From contig JAIPGC010000002.1 of NCBI GenBank assembly GCA_021736335.1, forward strand, positions 57,456 through 121,455: a stretch of DNA of 64,000 bases. The letters are read 5' to 3'. Within the stretch, counting starts at the first letter, position 1; every line of letters starts with the position of its first letter. The translations under genes were made by a program, and so were the position numbers. The notes beneath the pieces were generated by a model. It was not told where the DNA came from. It made no database searches and saw only the letters and a program-made list of their open reading frames with translations. This document shows positions 32,310-41,738 of this stretch, piece by piece. Source of the stretch: Acholeplasmataceae bacterium. GTDB lineage: Bacteria; Bacillota_I; Bacilli_A; Acholeplasmatales; Acholeplasmataceae.

Positions 32310-35210
32310 TTATTTTACTACTTTGTTAATGAAAACAGCTGCTATCTCAGGATCAAATTGAGTACCAGAGCACCTTCTAATTTCTTCAATAGCATCTTGC
32401 AAGCTTCTACCCTTATGGTAAGGACGATCCGCTGTCATAGCCTCAAATGAATCAGCTACATTGATAATTCTTGAATACAAAGGAATCTCATTGCCTTTTA
32501 ATCCTTTAGGATAACCTTTTCCGTCCCATCTTTCGTGATGAGATAGAGCATATTCTGCTAATCCAGAATATTCATCCGCAGCTTTGAGTATTTGATATCC
32601 GACTTGCGTATGTGATTTAATGATTTCAAACTCTTCATTTGTCAATTTTCCAGGTTTGTTCAATATTGCATCTGGAATTGATATTTTACCTATATCATGA
32701 TACATGCCAGCAAGTTCTAAGACATCGGCTTCTTCTTTGCTGAAACCAAGCTCCAACCCAATTGCTCTACAGTATTGGCTCACTCTTTCAGAATGTACTT
32801 TCTCATCTGCATACTTGTCTGTTAATGTGTTTAAAATTGCCTTAATGGCGTGATTTCTAATACTTGTACCTACGGTAATTTTGTGTCTGTATAAGAAATT
32901 TTCTGCTTGGCTTAATAATTCATCAATATCTCTATTCACATCAGTAACAACTTCATATCCTATAGCAAGAGAGATCTCAATGTTACCAATATTTAAATTC
33001 TTGACTAATTCGATGATCTTGTTTTTGTAATCTTGCATCTGTTCAGGATATTTATTTGGAGCAAGAATAGCAAATTCATCTCCACCAATTCGAGCTACGA
33101 TATCCATAGGATCAAATACTTTTCTAAACAGTCCAGATACAAGTTTAATTGCTTGATCTCCTTGGTTATGACCATAGGCATCATTGATGATTTTTAGCCC
33201 ATTGATATCAATCATCATCACCCCAAGTGGAAATTTCTCTTCAAAGACGAATTGATGATATGAATGAACGAAATATCTTCTATTATATAGATCGGTCAAA
33301 TAATCATGATAACTCAAGTATTCGATTTCTTTTTGTTTATGTTTTTCAATTGTAATATCTTCGATATGGACTAGATAACCACTTAATTGATCATCTTTCA
33401 TGATTGGGGTGACTATCAAATCTAGAACTCTTAGTCCAGTTTTACTTGTACGATATACCTTGGAAGATATGACTTTTTCAAAACTAAATTCCAGTTCAAC
33501 ATGAACTGACTCGAATTTGGCAATTTTATCTTTGAGTTCTTGGTTAAGATTAGGATTGTCAAATAAATTATAACCCTCAAGTTCATTACGATCCAAAACA
33601 CCAAACATTGTAAGGCACGCTTCATTAGCTTGTATGAATTTTCCATCAGCATCATAATATTCTATAGATATAGGAGATTTTTCAAAAATAGCTTTATATT
33701 TTTCATTACTATCATGAAGTGCATCTTCTAATTGTTTACGGTCTGTAATATCGGTAACTATCACTGCAAATTGACCCTTTTGAGGACTATATGTATAAGT
33801 TGAATAGTATTTATCGGTTGTTCCTAAGTAGTTCTCATAATATGTTGATTCACCAGTAACCGCCACATTGCCTAAAGTTTTAATCCAATAATCCTCAACC
33901 CTTGGCATGACTTCTGATATCTTTTTACCGATGCACATCTCACGTGTGATGCCAGTTAACCTTGTATAACTGTCGTTAATATCTAAGAAAATATAATCTA
34001 TTGGCACACCTTGTTCATCTAGTATGACTTCATGAAGTGCTAATCCTAGTTGCATTTGTGTAGCTAAAGCTTTATACTTTTCTTCACTTTCAATTAATTG
34101 ATCTTGAGCATCCTTAAGTTCATTGTAATCAATGAAACTGACAACAACTTCAATGATTTCATCATGAGAATCAAAAATAGGATGACCATTGATAATTACC
34201 CATGAAACTTCATTTGAATTTTGTCTAACAATACCCATAATAAGATTTTTCAGTTCTTTTTTACTAGATAGTATGTTACTAAGAGGATATTTGTCAGGTT
34301 CAATCAGATTTCTCTTTTCATCTATATAAACAAAACCAAACTCCTTAGTTTTTTTGCCTTTGATATCTTGTTCTTGGAATCCTAAGATTTCAAAAGCTCG
34401 ATGATTGATGTCTAAAATCGTAGCATCAGCAGCATATATGACAACTCCAGCATTAAGATTATATACCAATTCACGAAATCTCGTTTCACTCTTTAATAAA
34501 GTCTCAGTCAAACGATCTTTTTCAGCGTTGATAGCAATCAACTCTTTGTTTTCTCTAATTGATTTTTCTAATTTCTCTAATTGAGAAGCTTTCTCATCAT
34601 AGTTCAATTTTAATTCTTGATTAAGTTTAGAAATTTGTTGGTTGTGCAAGAAATTTTTACGATTCATAACTTCAACATTGTAAGCACCTACCATACCAAG
34701 CACATTAGCTACAATAAAGAACAATGAACTATAAATGAATATATCATTAATTTCTGAATTCCAGATGAAATAGCCAATCATATGCAATATGTAAAGTGAC
34801 CATCCAACAATTGATGCATTCACAAATCTGAGTTTGATTATGAAATAACTAGAAAAATAAACTAAAAATAATCCACCATAATACACGACATTACCTGGAT
34901 TAAGGATTAACATGAAAACTACAGCAAGACCACCAATCATGACACTGGTTGAAATTAAAAGTTGATGAATTCTCACAAAAGAATTCATATATGTAAAAAC
35001 AATAACAATAATAAAAGTAGGTACTACAATAGCAAATCTAATGATGTAAACAATAACTAGATAGTCTGATAGATAAACTGAATCTGTGATCCCAAAAAGT
35101 GTGAATAGAGCTATGAATAAAAGATAAGCAACCCGAAGAAATTTAGGTTGTATGAATTGATTTGAATTTCTAAACGCTTTTTCATCTTCAAAAGTAAAAC
35201 CTTTGACCAC
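32310..35210 (-). CDS. Membrane PAS-GGDEF-HD-GYP cyclic-di-GMP protein
   Basis: A 966-residue signalling protein. About five to six N-terminal membrane helices (25-185) and a coiled coil (190-235) come first. Three PAS domains follow (about 240-355, 370-490, 500-625), then GGDEF with an intact ARIGGDEFAIL site (about 630-785), then HD-GYP with HDIGK and HHERWDGKGYPKGL (about 790-966). It can in principle both make and break c-di-GMP, or one domain may regulate the other. The start is GTG at 35208-35210 with GAGGTG upstream. No PilZ effector is visible nearby. Confidence 0.93.
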   Translation of the reverse strand: MVKGFTFEDEKAFRNSNQFIQPKFLRVAYLLFIALFTLFGITDSVYLSDYLVIVYIIRFAIVVPTFIIVIVFTYMNSFVRIHQLLISTSVMIGGLAVVFMLILNPGNVVYYGGLFLVYFSSYFIIKLRFVNASIVGWSLYILHMIGYFIWNSEINDIFIYSSLFFIVANVLGMVGAYNVEVMNRKNFLHNQQISKLNQELKLNYDEKASQLEKLEKSIRENKELIAINAEKDRLTETLLKSETRFRELVYNLNAGVVIYAADATILDINHRAFEILGFQEQDIKGKKTKEFGFVYIDEKRNLIEPDKYPLSNILSSKKELKNLIMGIVRQNSNEVSWVIINGHPIFDSHDEIIEVVVSFIDYNELKDAQDQLIESEEKYKALATQMQLGLALHEVILDEQGVPIDYIFLDINDSYTRLTGITREMCIGKKISEVMPRVEDYWIKTLGNVAVTGESTYYENYLGTTDKYYSTYTYSPQKGQFAVIVTDITDRKQLEDALHDSNEKYKAIFEKSPISIEYYDADGKFIQANEACLTMFGVLDRNELEGYNLFDNPNLNQELKDKIAKFESVHVELEFSFEKVISSKVYRTSKTGLRVLDLIVTPIMKDDQLSGYLVHIEDITIEKHKQKEIEYLSYHDYLTDLYNRRYFVHSYHQFVFEEKFPLGVMMIDINGLKIINDAYGHNQGDQAIKLVSGLFRKVFDPMDIVARIGGDEFAILAPNKYPEQMQDYKNKIIELVKNLNIGNIEISLAIGYEVVTDVNRDIDELLSQAENFLYRHKITVGTSIRNHAIKAILNTLTDKYADEKVHSERVSQYCRAIGLELGFSKEEADVLELAGMYHDIGKISIPDAILNKPGKLTNEEFEIIKSHTQVGYQILKAADEYSGLAEYALSHHERWDGKGYPKGLKGNEIPLYSRIINVADSFEAMTADRPYHKGRSLQDAIEEIRRCSGTQFDPEIAAVFINKVVK

Positions 35211-36576: not shown

Positions 36577-39500
36577 TTAATTGATAGGTCTTAATCTGAT
36601 AACTTCATAGACTACAAACTCAGTATCTATAGTTACGACACCATCTTCTGATATTGAACCGGTAATATCTTGAATGAAATTGTCAACACCTTTAAAATAG
36701 ATAGATCCATCATAATCAATAACCAGGTCATTAACACCATTAATCTGTAATCCTTCTGTTAAGTTAACCACATCAAAATAGTAGTAATCTTCTGTTGATT
36801 GACTTGCATCATAGGTGAAATGAATGATTGCTGTTTCATCATCATTAATCGCAATGTATCCTTCTTTGAATCTTGTGATTTCAGTAAATGCTGAAATATT
36901 TGTATACTTAGCATAATACTTAGCTTCAACTTCATCATAGATTAAGATATAATTGTCATTTCCTTGAACCCATTGTTGCTTTTCAATTAAGTACGTATTA
37001 TCATCAAGAATAATGACATTATTTAAATTGTATAAGAAATCATAAACACTAATTCTAATCTTCCTATACTCAACGTTTGTTAGAACAAATGTTACTTCGA
37101 AGTTTTCATCAATTGGTATTTTGTCACCCTTGTTAAAACGAACAGGTAATGAATAATTGTACCAGGTTTCTGTAGGTTGTTGATATTCGTTACCTTCACC
37201 ATCAACAATACGGTAGTTTTGAGTATACATGATGCAACCTAAATCAGAAGTACATGTTAATTCATTTTCAAAACTAACAGGTGTTGCTCCTACAAGGACG
37301 ACTTGATTATATATTTCTTCACCATTTTCAAAAACTACATAACCTGATCCTAAATTGCCATATTCCATCGCACTTGTTGAAAATGCAACCCAAATACCGC
37401 AAGTTGTTGAAGCACAAGTCTTGTTTTCTGACAATGACTCTTTTCTATAATCTAGAGTTGCATCAGCCATTTCAACTGTGACATGATATGGTTTTCTATA
37501 TCCATATTGGACTGTGATATATTGGCTAAAATGATAGAGTTCAGTTCCAAATTCATCGACGACAGTATAAACTGTTTCCTCATTGTTCCAGCAACCATTA
37601 ATATTTGTACAAATAGCACTTTCTAAAGTCTGTTCTGTTACAATTTGTTTATCTGTTTCAGCAAAATCAATGGTTTCATACATAGGATCACCTTGTTGAT
37701 AGCTAATCCAATAATAAACCTGATCATATGTTTCATAATAACGGAAGCAGCCAGTTGATGTTGTACATACTTCTGGTGTCATCGTGATGACTGTATCTTC
37801 TGTCATTCTATACTCAATATATAATGGAATGGTTTCTCCTTGTGGAATTTGCATCTGATTATAGTATTCACTGAGTAGCTCACCTGTATCATCATAGATT
37901 CTAATCTTCACACTTTCATCACATGATGAATAGTTACATACGGTACCAGTAACAACTTTTGTATATTCATAATCAGCAGAATTTGTTTCACCAAGTGTAA
38001 TTGTATTTAGGAATTTTTCACCAAATGGAACGATGACATTTTGATTCATCCAAATACCCCATTCATTAATTGATTGATCAGTTAGATTGACTTGACTGAC
38101 ACATCCACTAACATTATCACATATTGCATCTGTATCAGAATAAACCTGCTCATATTGGTATGTTGTATTTGCATCTATTTGATAAGTTTCCTTATAATTA
38201 GGGACTGGGTCACCCGGATAATAAACTCCAGACGAATCAAGTGTAGCAATAAGATTGCCTTCAGCATCTAAAATCTCAGTTTGCATACTATACCAACAAC
38301 CATGAATATCTGTACATGCAGGTCTAAATGAGCTGTATGATCCTACACTTCCGATGCTTAAATCACCATCAGCAATAATCTTTTCACCTATAGCATTTTG
38401 AAGATATAGATACTGATTTGATGCATAAGGATCTGGTTCATCATCATAGATACTGATCATGAAGCCATTAACATATGAATATGTACTTATTTCATCTTTT
38501 TCACCTAATTCGATATAACTTGATGTTAACGTTCCATCAGAATTGATAACATAAAGTAATGTTGTATAATAACCAAGCTCTTCGACATAAGTTTGTACAT
38601 TATCGTAGAAATATAATTCACCATTAGGGAATGTGACAGGTTGTAAGGTATCTGTATCAGGTATGGTTTTTAAACCATGTGTTTCTGAATACACTTTAAT
38701 ATTACCATCCCATGAATCACAAATAATGTTGTTGTTTCTTGGATCAAGAATGATTTCACAGTTTGTAAAGTTAGCTTTTGTAGCATTGATATACTTTTGT
38801 AAGGTAAGTTCGTTTGTTTCACTATCAAAAGAAACTTTCATAACGAAATTTTCTGTAACACTGTCTTCTGTAATAGTATCCATGTAATAAATATCTTCGT
38901 TACCGGCAGAAAAACCATAGGATGATATCATGTAATTGTTTACACGATAATAATTCCAATTAAAATATTCACTAATGATTTTATCTACAAAGCGTTGTGT
39001 TATCTTAGTAATTGGATTATCTTGGACAACTGCTGTATACTCAATAACCGTGATATCTCTTATATCTTCGATAAAGAAATCTACTTCAAACTGTTGTTGA
39101 TATTGAAGATTGCCATTTTCATCTAGAACAGGCAAGAATTGCATTTCGAAAATTTGATTGCCATTTTCATCTAAGACTGGTTCTTCTACAATTTCAAAGA
39201 CAGGTTTTCCATCTTCATCAAAAACTGGATTGCCTTCATCATCAACAATCTGTTGCTCAAAGTATTGAATCAATCCAACCAATTGTTCTTCCATTAAAAT
39301 AGGTCCTTCAGTATAGATGAGTGGATTACCTTCATTATCAAGCACTGGTACAGACACTTCTTCATAAACCATATTGCCAAATTCATCAACAATTGGATTA
39401 TTAAATTCATCAAATTGTGGAAGTATTTGAATTTCTATGACTGGCTCATTAAGCGTTACTGAGAGGTGAACATATCTAGAATGATTTTCTTGAAAAGAAT

Positions 39501-40167
39501 ATGTGTTTTCAATCTGCTCAACATCTTTAGTTGAAAACATCTTTCCTGAAAGATTGTGAATCAGGTAAATGCCTCCAGCATAGAATGAGTCATATACTTT
39601 TTGTGCGAAATTTTCTTGGGTTTGATTATTATTGTAGGTTACTTCGAAAATAACGACTGTATATGCTCCATAAACCTCAAGTGCCAAAGGATTAGATGTG
39701 ATTTCTACGTTTTGACCTGATGAATCAGTAAAGCTAACTTCTTCAAAGAAACCATCTTCAGTTAATTTAACTATTAAATTTTCTGTATCCTCAATGGTAG
39801 CAGTTGTCGCAAGATTAAGCATATCTATATAATCCATACCACCTAAGTTAATGGCATTTTCATAGACATCTCTAGGAACAACAGCAAGTCCTTTAGAGTC
39901 TGTTAGGTCAGCGACGAATTCATTCATTAATTCGATTGAATCTAAATTCTCGACTCTTGTCTCATCTTCATAAATTGATATGTTATCAGATATGAAGTTT
40001 TCAATGAGCACGCATTCACCATTGATCATGAAGTAGTTTGGTTGACCACATGGATCTTGAATCTCATTTTTTATTGGATCTATCGGATTATTGTCTTCAC
40101 CTTCCGTACATCCAAAAAGCATAAAAGCTACTACAAAAAATACAAGTACAGTTAATAATTTCCTCAT
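36577..40167 (-). CDS. Giant lipoprotein with repeated Cys modules, 1196 aa
   Basis: I do not recognise the family. It has a lipoprotein signal (MRKLLTVLVFFVVAFMLFGC) and an acidic linker, then a segment of degenerate PVLDENGN-type repeats (residues ~250-355). A beta-rich region follows with at least seven modules between ~610 and 980, each closing with a Cys pair: CTDIHGC, CDNVSGC, CNYSSC, CTTSTGC, CTNINGC, CASTTC, CTSDLGC. A G-x-x-x-P turn precedes each by 15-35 residues. The start at 40165-40167 follows GGAGG. It lies 72 bp behind an HtrA-like lipoprotein and shares its terminator. Likely a surface protein. Confidence 0.8.
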   Translation of the reverse strand: MRKLLTVLVFFVVAFMLFGCTEGEDNNPIDPIKNEIQDPCGQPNYFMINGECVLIENFISDNISIYEDETRVENLDSIELMNEFVADLTDSKGLAVVPRDVYENAINLGGMDYIDMLNLATTATIEDTENLIVKLTEDGFFEEVSFTDSSGQNVEITSNPLALEVYGAYTVVIFEVTYNNNQTQENFAQKVYDSFYAGGIYLIHNLSGKMFSTKDVEQIENTYSFQENHSRYVHLSVTLNEPVIEIQILPQFDEFNNPIVDEFGNMVYEEVSVPVLDNEGNPLIYTEGPILMEEQLVGLIQYFEQQIVDDEGNPVFDEDGKPVFEIVEEPVLDENGNQIFEMQFLPVLDENGNLQYQQQFEVDFFIEDIRDITVIEYTAVVQDNPITKITQRFVDKIISEYFNWNYYRVNNYMISSYGFSAGNEDIYYMDTITEDSVTENFVMKVSFDSETNELTLQKYINATKANFTNCEIILDPRNNNIICDSWDGNIKVYSETHGLKTIPDTDTLQPVTFPNGELYFYDNVQTYVEELGYYTTLLYVINSDGTLTSSYIELGEKDEISTYSYVNGFMISIYDDEPDPYASNQYLYLQNAIGEKIIADGDLSIGSVGSYSSFRPACTDIHGCWYSMQTEILDAEGNLIATLDSSGVYYPGDPVPNYKETYQIDANTTYQYEQVYSDTDAICDNVSGCVSQVNLTDQSINEWGIWMNQNVIVPFGEKFLNTITLGETNSADYEYTKVVTGTVCNYSSCDESVKIRIYDDTGELLSEYYNQMQIPQGETIPLYIEYRMTEDTVITMTPEVCTTSTGCFRYYETYDQVYYWISYQQGDPMYETIDFAETDKQIVTEQTLESAICTNINGCWNNEETVYTVVDEFGTELYHFSQYITVQYGYRKPYHVTVEMADATLDYRKESLSENKTCASTTCGIWVAFSTSAMEYGNLGSGYVVFENGEEIYNQVVLVGATPVSFENELTCTSDLGCIMYTQNYRIVDGEGNEYQQPTETWYNYSLPVRFNKGDKIPIDENFEVTFVLTNVEYRKIRISVYDFLYNLNNVIILDDNTYLIEKQQWVQGNDNYILIYDEVEAKYYAKYTNISAFTEITRFKEGYIAINDDETAIIHFTYDASQSTEDYYYFDVVNLTEGLQINGVNDLVIDYDGSIYFKGVDNFIQDITGSISEDGVVTIDTEFVVYEVIRLRPIN

Positions 40168-40239
40168 AATATCCTCCATTTTAATTATATTTTTAAGGGA
40201 TTTTTCTGAATTTTATGTGCCTATTGATTCCTTGATTAC

Positions 40240-40959
40240 TTATGATTCAATAAATTCTAAAACAACTTCGATTGGAATACTAAATCCAATCCCTATAACT
40301 GTGACAATGGAACCACCTGAATTTGTGCTATTTAATTTAGAGACATTGATACCAATGATTTGTCCTTCCAAATTGAATAGTGGTCCACCACTACTACCTG
40401 GATTAACTGCTGCATCATGTTGAATTAAATCATCCTCAATCTTGGAAATAATTCCTAATGTGACTGTATTTACATAATCTAAATCCACAGGTGTTCCAAT
40501 AGATAAAACCAGTTCACCAACCATATAATTCACAGGCTCTAATTCACAAATATCTAAGATTTCTGCTGATGTTATTTTAAGAATTGCAAGATCAACACTT
40601 GGATCACTTTTTATGAAACTTGCAGATAGATATCTGTCTTGATTGGGAAGATATACCTCAATTGATTGGTAATAACGTATAACATGCTCATTTGTAATGA
40701 CATAATAATCATTTGAGTCTTGTTCGTAAATCACGCCTGAACCATGGCTTTTTGATTCATCTGGTAGTGTGATTTCAACAACAATTGTGCAGCTTTTTGC
40801 CTGACTAGAAACAAGTTTGAGTTGCTCATTAAAATCAACAATTTGAGATTGCATTTCCTCTAATATTTCATTTTTGATTTCTTCTTTTAATTCGTCTTGA
40901 TCAATCTTTTGACAACCAGCTAAAATAAATATTAGAAAAACGATGAGTAACTTCTTCAT
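40240..40959 (-). CDS. HtrA-like trypsin-family serine protease, lipoprotein, no PDZ
   Basis: A 239-residue extracytoplasmic protease with lipobox LAGC at residue ~15. The catalytic triad is visible: HGSGVIYE...YVITNEHVI (His), SDPSVDLAILKI (Asp) and AAVNPGSSGGPLFN (Ser). Its length covers only the protease domain; the PDZ domain of HtrA/DegP is missing. It is the first gene of a two-gene unit with the giant Cys-module lipoprotein, so the pair may act on the same surface substrate. Upstream lies a structured leader with a U-tract. Confidence 0.88.
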   Translation of the reverse strand: MKKLLIVFLIFILAGCQKIDQDELKEEIKNEILEEMQSQIVDFNEQLKLVSSQAKSCTIVVEITLPDESKSHGSGVIYEQDSNDYYVITNEHVIRYYQSIEVYLPNQDRYLSASFIKSDPSVDLAILKITSAEILDICELEPVNYMVGELVLSIGTPVDLDYVNTVTLGIISKIEDDLIQHDAAVNPGSSGGPLFNLEGQIIGINVSKLNSTNSGGSIVTVIGIGFSIPIEVVLEFIES

Positions 40960-40991
40960 TCATGCACCTCGACTGTTAATGATTAGCAAAC

Positions 40992-41209
40992 AAAAAAATC
41001 CTTATTATGCATGTTGTCATGCTATTCCTGCCAGAATAGTCAAAATTACAATAAGGTTCAGTCATTTTAGCTATGTATTTTTCAAATGCTTAGAATATGA
41101 TCAGCCAATAGCTCTATCTGACTGTTCTGTCTTTTGAAAAAAGATTTAGTGTGAAAATATCGATTGCCTATATCACTTTAATCATACCACCAAATAATGA
41201 CAAATGTCT
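40992..41209 (-). promoter_or_regulatory. Structured leader with competing helices and U-tract, protease-lipoprotein operon
   Basis: On the minus strand an extended -10 TGGTATGAT (box 41181-41186) gives a leader of about 215 nt. TGACTG (plus 41119-41124) can pair locally with CAGCCA (41102-41107) or long-range with CAGTCA (41059-41064). The latter is extended by AGCTAT/ATAGCT (41069-41074 with 41108-41113). Next comes a three-way junction closed by CCTTATT/AATAAGG (41000-41006 with 41050-41056) with two hairpins inside, and then T7. The layout is aptamer plus expression platform; I match no known class. The upstream rest of the 400-bp gap holds the terminator and palindromes. Confidence 0.6.
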
Positions 41210-41297
41210 TAAGTTTATATTACTTTTTTACAAATTTTTTATATATCTTTTGCCATACAAAGGGAAATGACTTGTTTTATTTATGACATATGTCATA
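41199..41297. repeat. Two GACANATGTC palindromes
   Basis: GACAAATGTC (41199-41208) overlaps the -35 zone of the protease-leader promoter. GACATATGTC (41285-41294) sits inside a perfect 16-bp palindrome (41282-41297). The centres are 86 bp apart, about eight helical turns. They look like paired operator sites; no regulator gene is adjacent. Confidence 0.5.
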
Positions 41298-41303
41298 TAC
41301 GAT

Positions 41304-41344
41304 AAAAAAATGAGATAAACATTTTTTTCTCAATGTTTACCTCA
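41304..41344 (-). terminator. Terminator of the 126-aa hypothetical gene
   Basis: A 13-bp stem (TGAGGTAAACATT with complement, one G-U) is followed by T7 on the minus strand, 14 bp after the stop. Confidence 0.9.
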
Positions 41345-41357
41345 CGAATTGATTCAA

Positions 41358-41738
41358 TTATACTCTAGCTAGAACTGCAATCTTGCAATCCACTTGATAT
41401 TCAAATCCATTAATGAATATTGGTACTTGAATAATTTTATCATCTATATATTCCACTTTAAAATACTTTTTCCCGATCATAAGCATTTCATTGACTTCCA
41501 GACTATCCTTTGCTCTAAAAGTCATGGATGCCATCTGATCATCAATCATTCCATAAATGGGTAAATCCAAATTAATGAACTCACTTGTTACTTTCTTGAT
41601 TTTCATTGCTTCTTTTTTAAATGCTTGATAAATGTCTATTTTTTCTTTAGTTTCATCAGCAAATTGTTGAACTGAATCGACAACCTTCTCAGTTTGCTTT
41701 TTTACTTGTCTAAAAAACTCTTTACTATTCTTTTTCAA
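41358..41738 (-). CDS. Uncharacterised 126-aa protein with basic helix
   Basis: Not recognised. The N-terminal third is a charged, probably coiled-coil helix (KKNSKEFFRQVKKQTEKVVDSVQQFADETKEKI), followed by a small beta domain (DLPIYGMIDDQMASMTFRAKDSLEVNEMLMIGKKYFKVEYIDDKIIQVPIFI). I place the start at TTG 41736-41738, 9 nt from GGAGG; a longer TTG reading would include the ribosome site itself. No signal peptide. Single-gene unit with a strong terminator. Confidence 0.6.
   Translation of the reverse strand: MKKNSKEFFRQVKKQTEKVVDSVQQFADETKEKIDIYQAFKKEAMKIKKVTSEFINLDLPIYGMIDDQMASMTFRAKDSLEVNEMLMIGKKYFKVEYIDDKIIQVPIFINGFEYQVDCKIAVLARV

Follow-up and report, generated by a model that had tools for sequence, protein, structure and literature searches.

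A conserved RNA leader, probably a gene switch, before two cell-surface protein genes in an Acholeplasmataceae bacterium

The window, i.e., the whole stretch of 64,000 nucleotides of an Acholeplasmataceae genome analyzed here, carries on its minus strand a two-gene operon with a structured leader. The first gene 3′ of the leader encodes an HtrA/trypsin-like lipoprotein of 239 residues with a lipobox-like N-terminus (LAGC), which matches Trypsin_2 (1.4e-22) and the DegP/HtrA Do-family model (2.8e-42, under that family's cut-off). The second encodes a lipoprotein of 1200 residues, for which Pfam and NCBIfam return no match. This protein contains repeated VPVLDExGNP-like segments and occurs in few genomes, which fall into two groups; the AlphaFold model of its first 496 residues has a mean pLDDT of 40 and is unusable. 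The leader is located between the end of the preceding gene (41358) and the HtrA-like gene, and a terminator-like site sets the operon apart from upstream. The features, in the direction of transcription, are as follows.

41310-41345, minus strand: terminator-like site 3′ of the preceding gene
41181-41210, minus strand: predicted promoter
40992-41174, minus strand: structured leader, ~183 nt with termination at the U tract
41119-41124, minus strand: P1 5′ strand, CAGUCA
41108-41113, minus strand: P2 5′ strand, AGCUAU
41102-41107, minus strand: UGGCUG, local competitor for the P1 5′ strand
41069-41074, minus strand: P2 3′ strand, AUAGCU
41059-41064, minus strand: P1 3′ strand, UGACUG, the long-range partner
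41048-41056, minus strand: terminator stem 5′ arm, CCUUAUUGU
41023-41038, minus strand: inner hairpin 1, UAUUCU-GGCA-GGAAUA
41009-41022, minus strand: inner hairpin 2, GCAUG-ACAA-CAUGC
40992-41008, minus strand: terminator stem 3′ arm, AUAAUAAGG (41000-41008), then A-U7 (40992-40999)
40240-40959, minus strand: HtrA/trypsin-like lipoprotein gene
36577-40179, minus strand: 1200-residue lipoprotein gene

A consensus scan predicts a promoter composed of AAGACA, an 18-nt spacer and TATGAT with the extended -10 element TGG, from which the transcript is expected to start at ~41174. The layout AAGAC-N-TGGTATNAT is also present in a congener, G005, and this conserved, predicted extended -10 promoter speaks against transcription starting downstream of 41,000, a possibility raised in the preliminary description of the locus. 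Only 33 nt separate the U tract from the HtrA start codon, so that a second promoter would hardly fit between the terminator and the gene. Short open reading frames within the leader vary in length and frame across the window and two related species (G005 and G013, see below) and have no evident Shine-Dalgarno sequence; a leader-peptide attenuator was rejected because a conserved reading frame is absent from all three leaders.

The segment CAGUCA has two possible partners. The long-range pairing with UGACUG forms P1, which encloses the six base pairs of P2 and its 33-nt loop, whereas the local pairing with UGGCUG, also of six possible pairs, is the competitor. Both helices can form on the minus strand, as first described; the arrangement itself is near chance in the window alone, with a comparable set of competing partners in 112 of 2000 dinucleotide shuffles (5.6%). 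Likewise, the minimum free energy of the leader has a z-score of -1.05, and 26 of 200 shuffles fold equally well. Taken by itself, the single-sequence observation is weak and close to chance; it is rescued by comparison with relatives.

When 61 genomes were searched at the DNA level, a similar leader was found in G005, with 70% identity to window positions 41216-40992 (BLASTN E 1.4e-17). The conserved block starts at the predicted promoter (41216) and stops exactly at the last U (40992). In G005, none of the 21 pairs of P1, P2 and the terminator stem (nine of them in the stem) is lost, and P1 and P2 each have one compensatory change (C-G to U-A and G-C to A-U, respectively). Because P1 and P2 had been drawn from the window alone, G005 serves as an independent test. 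Sliding the partner strands lowers the pairing in the two sequences to 21-46%. A column shuffle of the two-sequence alifold consensus from P1 to the tail gives a z-score of -6.5, with none of 1000 shuffles as good (P1/P2, -5.5; terminator, -5.4); a letter-shuffle control on the two rows was uninformative (122 of 500). A conserved structured domain with covariation, as looked for in riboswitches, is found here within the limit of two sequences, and the apparent covariation comprises few pairs, i.e., the two compensatory ones. P2, originally put forward as a second 6-bp helix reinforcing the long-range one, is thus present and kept in G005 with a compensatory change. The local competitor can also form in G005, where five pairs are invariant and one C-G becomes U-G. 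Between window and G005 it has no covariation, because its strands hardly change. The comparison with relatives therefore bears out the long-range helices and leaves the local competitor without covariation. The predicted energies differ as well, ~-5 to -6 kcal/mol for the local fold versus -14 kcal/mol for the long-range fold, a gap of ~8 kcal/mol.

Sequence conservation between window and G005 is highest in the P2 loop (CUAUUGGCUGA, GCAUUU and AAAUA). A pseudoknot between the 5′ flank (UUUUUUCAAA) and this loop (UUUGAAAAA), suggested by truncated folds, was rejected, with duplex energies no better than those of shuffles (248, 497 and 1398 of 2000). In the window, UGACUG can alternatively pair with CAGUCG just 5′ of the HtrA Shine-Dalgarno sequence; by inspection, this alternative is not seen in G005 or G013.

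In the third species, G013, the HtrA-lipoprotein pair has a leader at the equivalent position, which on its own folds into P1 (register shifted by two, GUCAG/CUGAU), P2 (8 bp, AUAGUUAU/AUAGCUAU) and a terminator. Little of the P2 loop sequence is shared, and the terminator region can be aligned to the window (70% over 70 nt, E 0.017). In an alifold of a three-row alignment made by hand in the homologous register, P1/P2 is not significant (z 0.1), with z-scores of -1.9 overall and -3.2 for the terminator. By the sequences compared, G013 is a support by architecture, not by covariation, and the leader shape is conserved in one close relative (G005) and in outline in a second (G013). A further relative, G009, has the operon without such a leader; its upstream region was rejected as a member, having only short-word sequence matches and no Rfam match. 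The 1200-residue lipoprotein is 61-72% identical to its orthologues in G013, G005 and G009. In G005 the leader lies directly 5′ of the lipoprotein orthologue, with no HtrA gene in between (locus L002). The placement ahead of an HtrA-lipoprotein operon, as originally reported, therefore holds in the window and not in G005, and since the leader is kept there without HtrA, the lipoprotein gene, which is common to all three leaders, is the constant target.

The terminator follows P1 in all three species. Inner hairpin 1 folds in each of them, whereas inner hairpin 2 occurs in the window only, where it creates a three-way junction. The junction ending in T7 noted at the outset is accordingly present in the window, and G005 and G013 have a single inner hairpin. 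Single-sequence z-scores of the terminator region range from -3.2 to -3.6 in the three species, and in the window (-3.6) this region, unlike the whole leader, exceeds chance. As in intrinsic-terminator attenuators, the leader has a stem and U tract between promoter and first gene, and both are present in the predicted folds of G005 and G013 too.

A covariance model built from window and G005 (R1) gave strong matches to those two only among 160 genomes of the order; it scores G013 weakly (18.3 bits), so that it would overlook members with a divergence like that of G013. A model of P1/P2 only (R2), run on 41 relatives, added weak matches only. Nearly all weak matches of both models lie within coding genes and were rejected as chance; one R2 match (L110, 22.9 bits) lies outside any reading frame of at least 90 residues. 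The leader is thus known from three species, as a single copy per genome tied to one operon. At gathering score, Rfam 15 matched in the window a tmRNA alone (RF00023, 29384-29723, plus strand, 145.6 bits) and no riboswitch, T-box or ribosomal leader. Within 40900-41360, all Rfam matches at E up to 10 fall far under cut-off, and the leaders of G005 and G013 likewise match no family. The idea of a structured leader or attenuator outside the known classes is upheld by the covariation in G005, the architecture of G013, the terminator, the predicted promoter and the lack of an Rfam match.

On balance, we consider it most likely that the leader is a cis-acting transcription attenuator with a narrow distribution. 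Transcription would start near 41174, and the nascent RNA would first form the local hairpin CAGUCA/UGGCUG. Once 41074-41059 is transcribed, the RNA would refold into the long P1/P2 hairpin; the terminator stem and U7 would come next, and a fraction of transcripts would stop before the HtrA and lipoprotein genes. Predicted folds of the growing window transcript have the local hairpin first and P1/P2 later, and those of G005 also begin with the local hairpin, after which other folds compete and the order is not clear. The P1/P2 hairpin with its 33-nt loop would be the probable sensing part, responding to a small molecule, a protein or co-transcriptional conditions, and ligand sensing by the leader is plausible. 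Riboswitch-type attenuators have the same succession of promoter, conserved structured domain, intrinsic terminator with U tract, and start codon. Unlike these generally, the window leader is without a demonstrated mutually exclusive antiterminator, and it has three members. Truncated consensus folding found no conserved antiterminator capturing the terminator 5′ arm; the best alternative common to window and G005 has four pairs at a probability of ~0.3. In addition, P1/P2 does not overlap the terminator, which leaves no evident route of control from one to the other. An aptamer with expression platform, the layout initially suggested, is not borne out, given a local alternative that is invariant bar one wobble, ~8 kcal/mol weaker, and no conserved antiterminator. 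The best-supported view is an attenuator in which the conserved upstream hairpin, P1/P2, is a sensing or stabilizing part; the switching step and the signal are inferred.

One candidate signal comes from the same operon elsewhere. Searching 85,462 species genomes for the lipoprotein yielded orthologues in the Izemoplasma group, and in three of these genomes a c-di-GMP-I riboswitch (RF01051, GEMM-I) sits 5′ of the orthologous HtrA gene, before an operon for an HtrA-like lipoprotein and a large lipoprotein.

L041:4010-4092 (CSMAG_300): c-di-GMP-I riboswitch, 59.3 bits
L044:4016-4098 (Ca. Izimaplasma HR2): c-di-GMP-I riboswitch, 56.9 bits
L043:65-151 (Ca. Izemoplasma GMC6): c-di-GMP-I riboswitch, 40.9 bits

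All three are above Rfam's cut-off (gathering score, 35 bits) and are positive controls for the RF01051 search, which gave no match to the leaders of the window, G005 or G013 at E 5-10; a degenerate c-di-GMP-I aptamer was rejected on the lack of a match at E up to 10. A terminator-like hairpin and a U run come after the riboswitch in L041 and L044, as in the window. In place of the two-stem fold of c-di-GMP-I, the window leader has a nested two-helix hairpin. In our literature search, no paper was found that joins Izemoplasma and riboswitches or reports a c-di-GMP-I riboswitch before such an operon. The three operons are a precedent for leader control, and an analogy for them exists in Clostridioides difficile, where the secreted protease PPEP-1 and adhesins are inversely regulated by c-di-GMP riboswitch classes I and II (PMC11477304). 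That system, too, couples a secreted protease and surface proteins to leader control; unlike it, there is one operon here, and the protease type is unrelated.

In the window genome there are 12 matches to GGDEF, together with two c-di-GMP-I riboswitches at other loci; GGDEF proteins and c-di-GMP-I riboswitches both occur in every one of the genus's 20 genomes. A gene for a 966-residue PAS, GGDEF and HD protein, likely involved in c-di-GMP turnover, lies downstream of the lipoprotein operon and shares its strand (32310-35210, minus strand). The two riboswitches of the window genome (L047:1501-1575 and L048:1501-1576) lie ahead of genes for small, secreted-looking proteins whose signal peptides have AYW/AWM-type ends; by eye these resemble TasA-like matrix proteins, without a Pfam match, and a signal-peptidase-like gene is near the one in L047. 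Three tandem c-di-GMP-I riboswitches, ~115-140 nt apart, occur in each of three genomes (G009:C89:2819-3168, G013:C84:27164-27513 and G018:C107:46853-47168); the G018 tandem (L083) has small secreted-looking proteins downstream and a diguanylate-cyclase-like gene just upstream.

Because the orthologous operons carry a c-di-GMP-I riboswitch at the leader position, c-di-GMP is by analogy the natural first candidate for a ligand, which is not evidence of binding by the window leader. The leader could then be a new ligand-binding riboswitch that stands in for the c-di-GMP-I riboswitch seen in the Izemoplasma operons; its aptamer, perhaps one that binds c-di-GMP, would be made up of the P2 loop together with the P1/P2 junction. 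The conserved loop, the riboswitches of the orthologous operons, and the occurrence of GGDEF and c-di-GMP-I throughout the genus, with a GGDEF/HD protein encoded nearby, fit this explanation, which we nevertheless hold only tentatively: the G013 loop is little alike, the genome, which already uses c-di-GMP-I elsewhere, does not evidently need a further class, no antiterminator was found, and the leader is limited to three species with one locus each. The narrower proposal of a new c-di-GMP-responsive class, replacing c-di-GMP-I before a surface-protein operon in one Acholeplasmataceae-like genus, is a long shot.

Alternatively, the terminator might be fixed and the upstream hairpin stabilizing or insulating, with constant partial termination, low expression and no signal sensed. 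No other part is as stable or as widely kept as the terminator (three species, z -3.2 to -3.6), and the switch is without covariation support; this explanation leaves the conservation of P1/P2 and its loop, with compensatory changes in G005, unexplained, and we consider it rather unlikely. An RNA-binding protein that stabilizes one of the two folds is compatible with the architecture and with the loop sequence conserved between window and G005. Antiterminator targets of the LicT/SacY kind overlap the terminator arm, and P1/P2, unlike these, does not; with no candidate binding protein either, a protein-dependent attenuator is improbable. We note that the riboswitch and the protein-dependent attenuator are each a version of the attenuator reading, and the confidences given to them overlap with it. 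Finally, a small RNA gene, with the terminated ~183-nt transcript as product and the downstream genes expressed by read-through, would agree with a promoter-to-U-tract block conserved as a unit in single copy per genome, but is very unlikely for an element always directly 5′ of one lipoprotein operon in three species and, in the window, 33 nt from the start codon.

In sum, the two cell-surface protein genes are preceded by what is probably a gene switch: the shape of the leader is conserved in relatives, a stop signal lies at its end, and a c-di-GMP sensor occupies the equivalent site in more distant relatives. If it is a switch, relatives of Acholeplasma would have a cis-regulatory RNA that is rare and undescribed. 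The absence of HtrA in G005, with the leader retained, is a natural difference that shows the lipoprotein as the constant target. For Izemoplasma, the c-di-GMP-I riboswitch before an operon for a secreted protease and a lipoprotein is a concrete prediction in itself. With two leaders for one operon, c-di-GMP-I in Izemoplasma and the present element in the genus of the window, the guess at a ligand is unusually direct, and the operon may offer a natural example of different control RNAs occupying one site in different groups.
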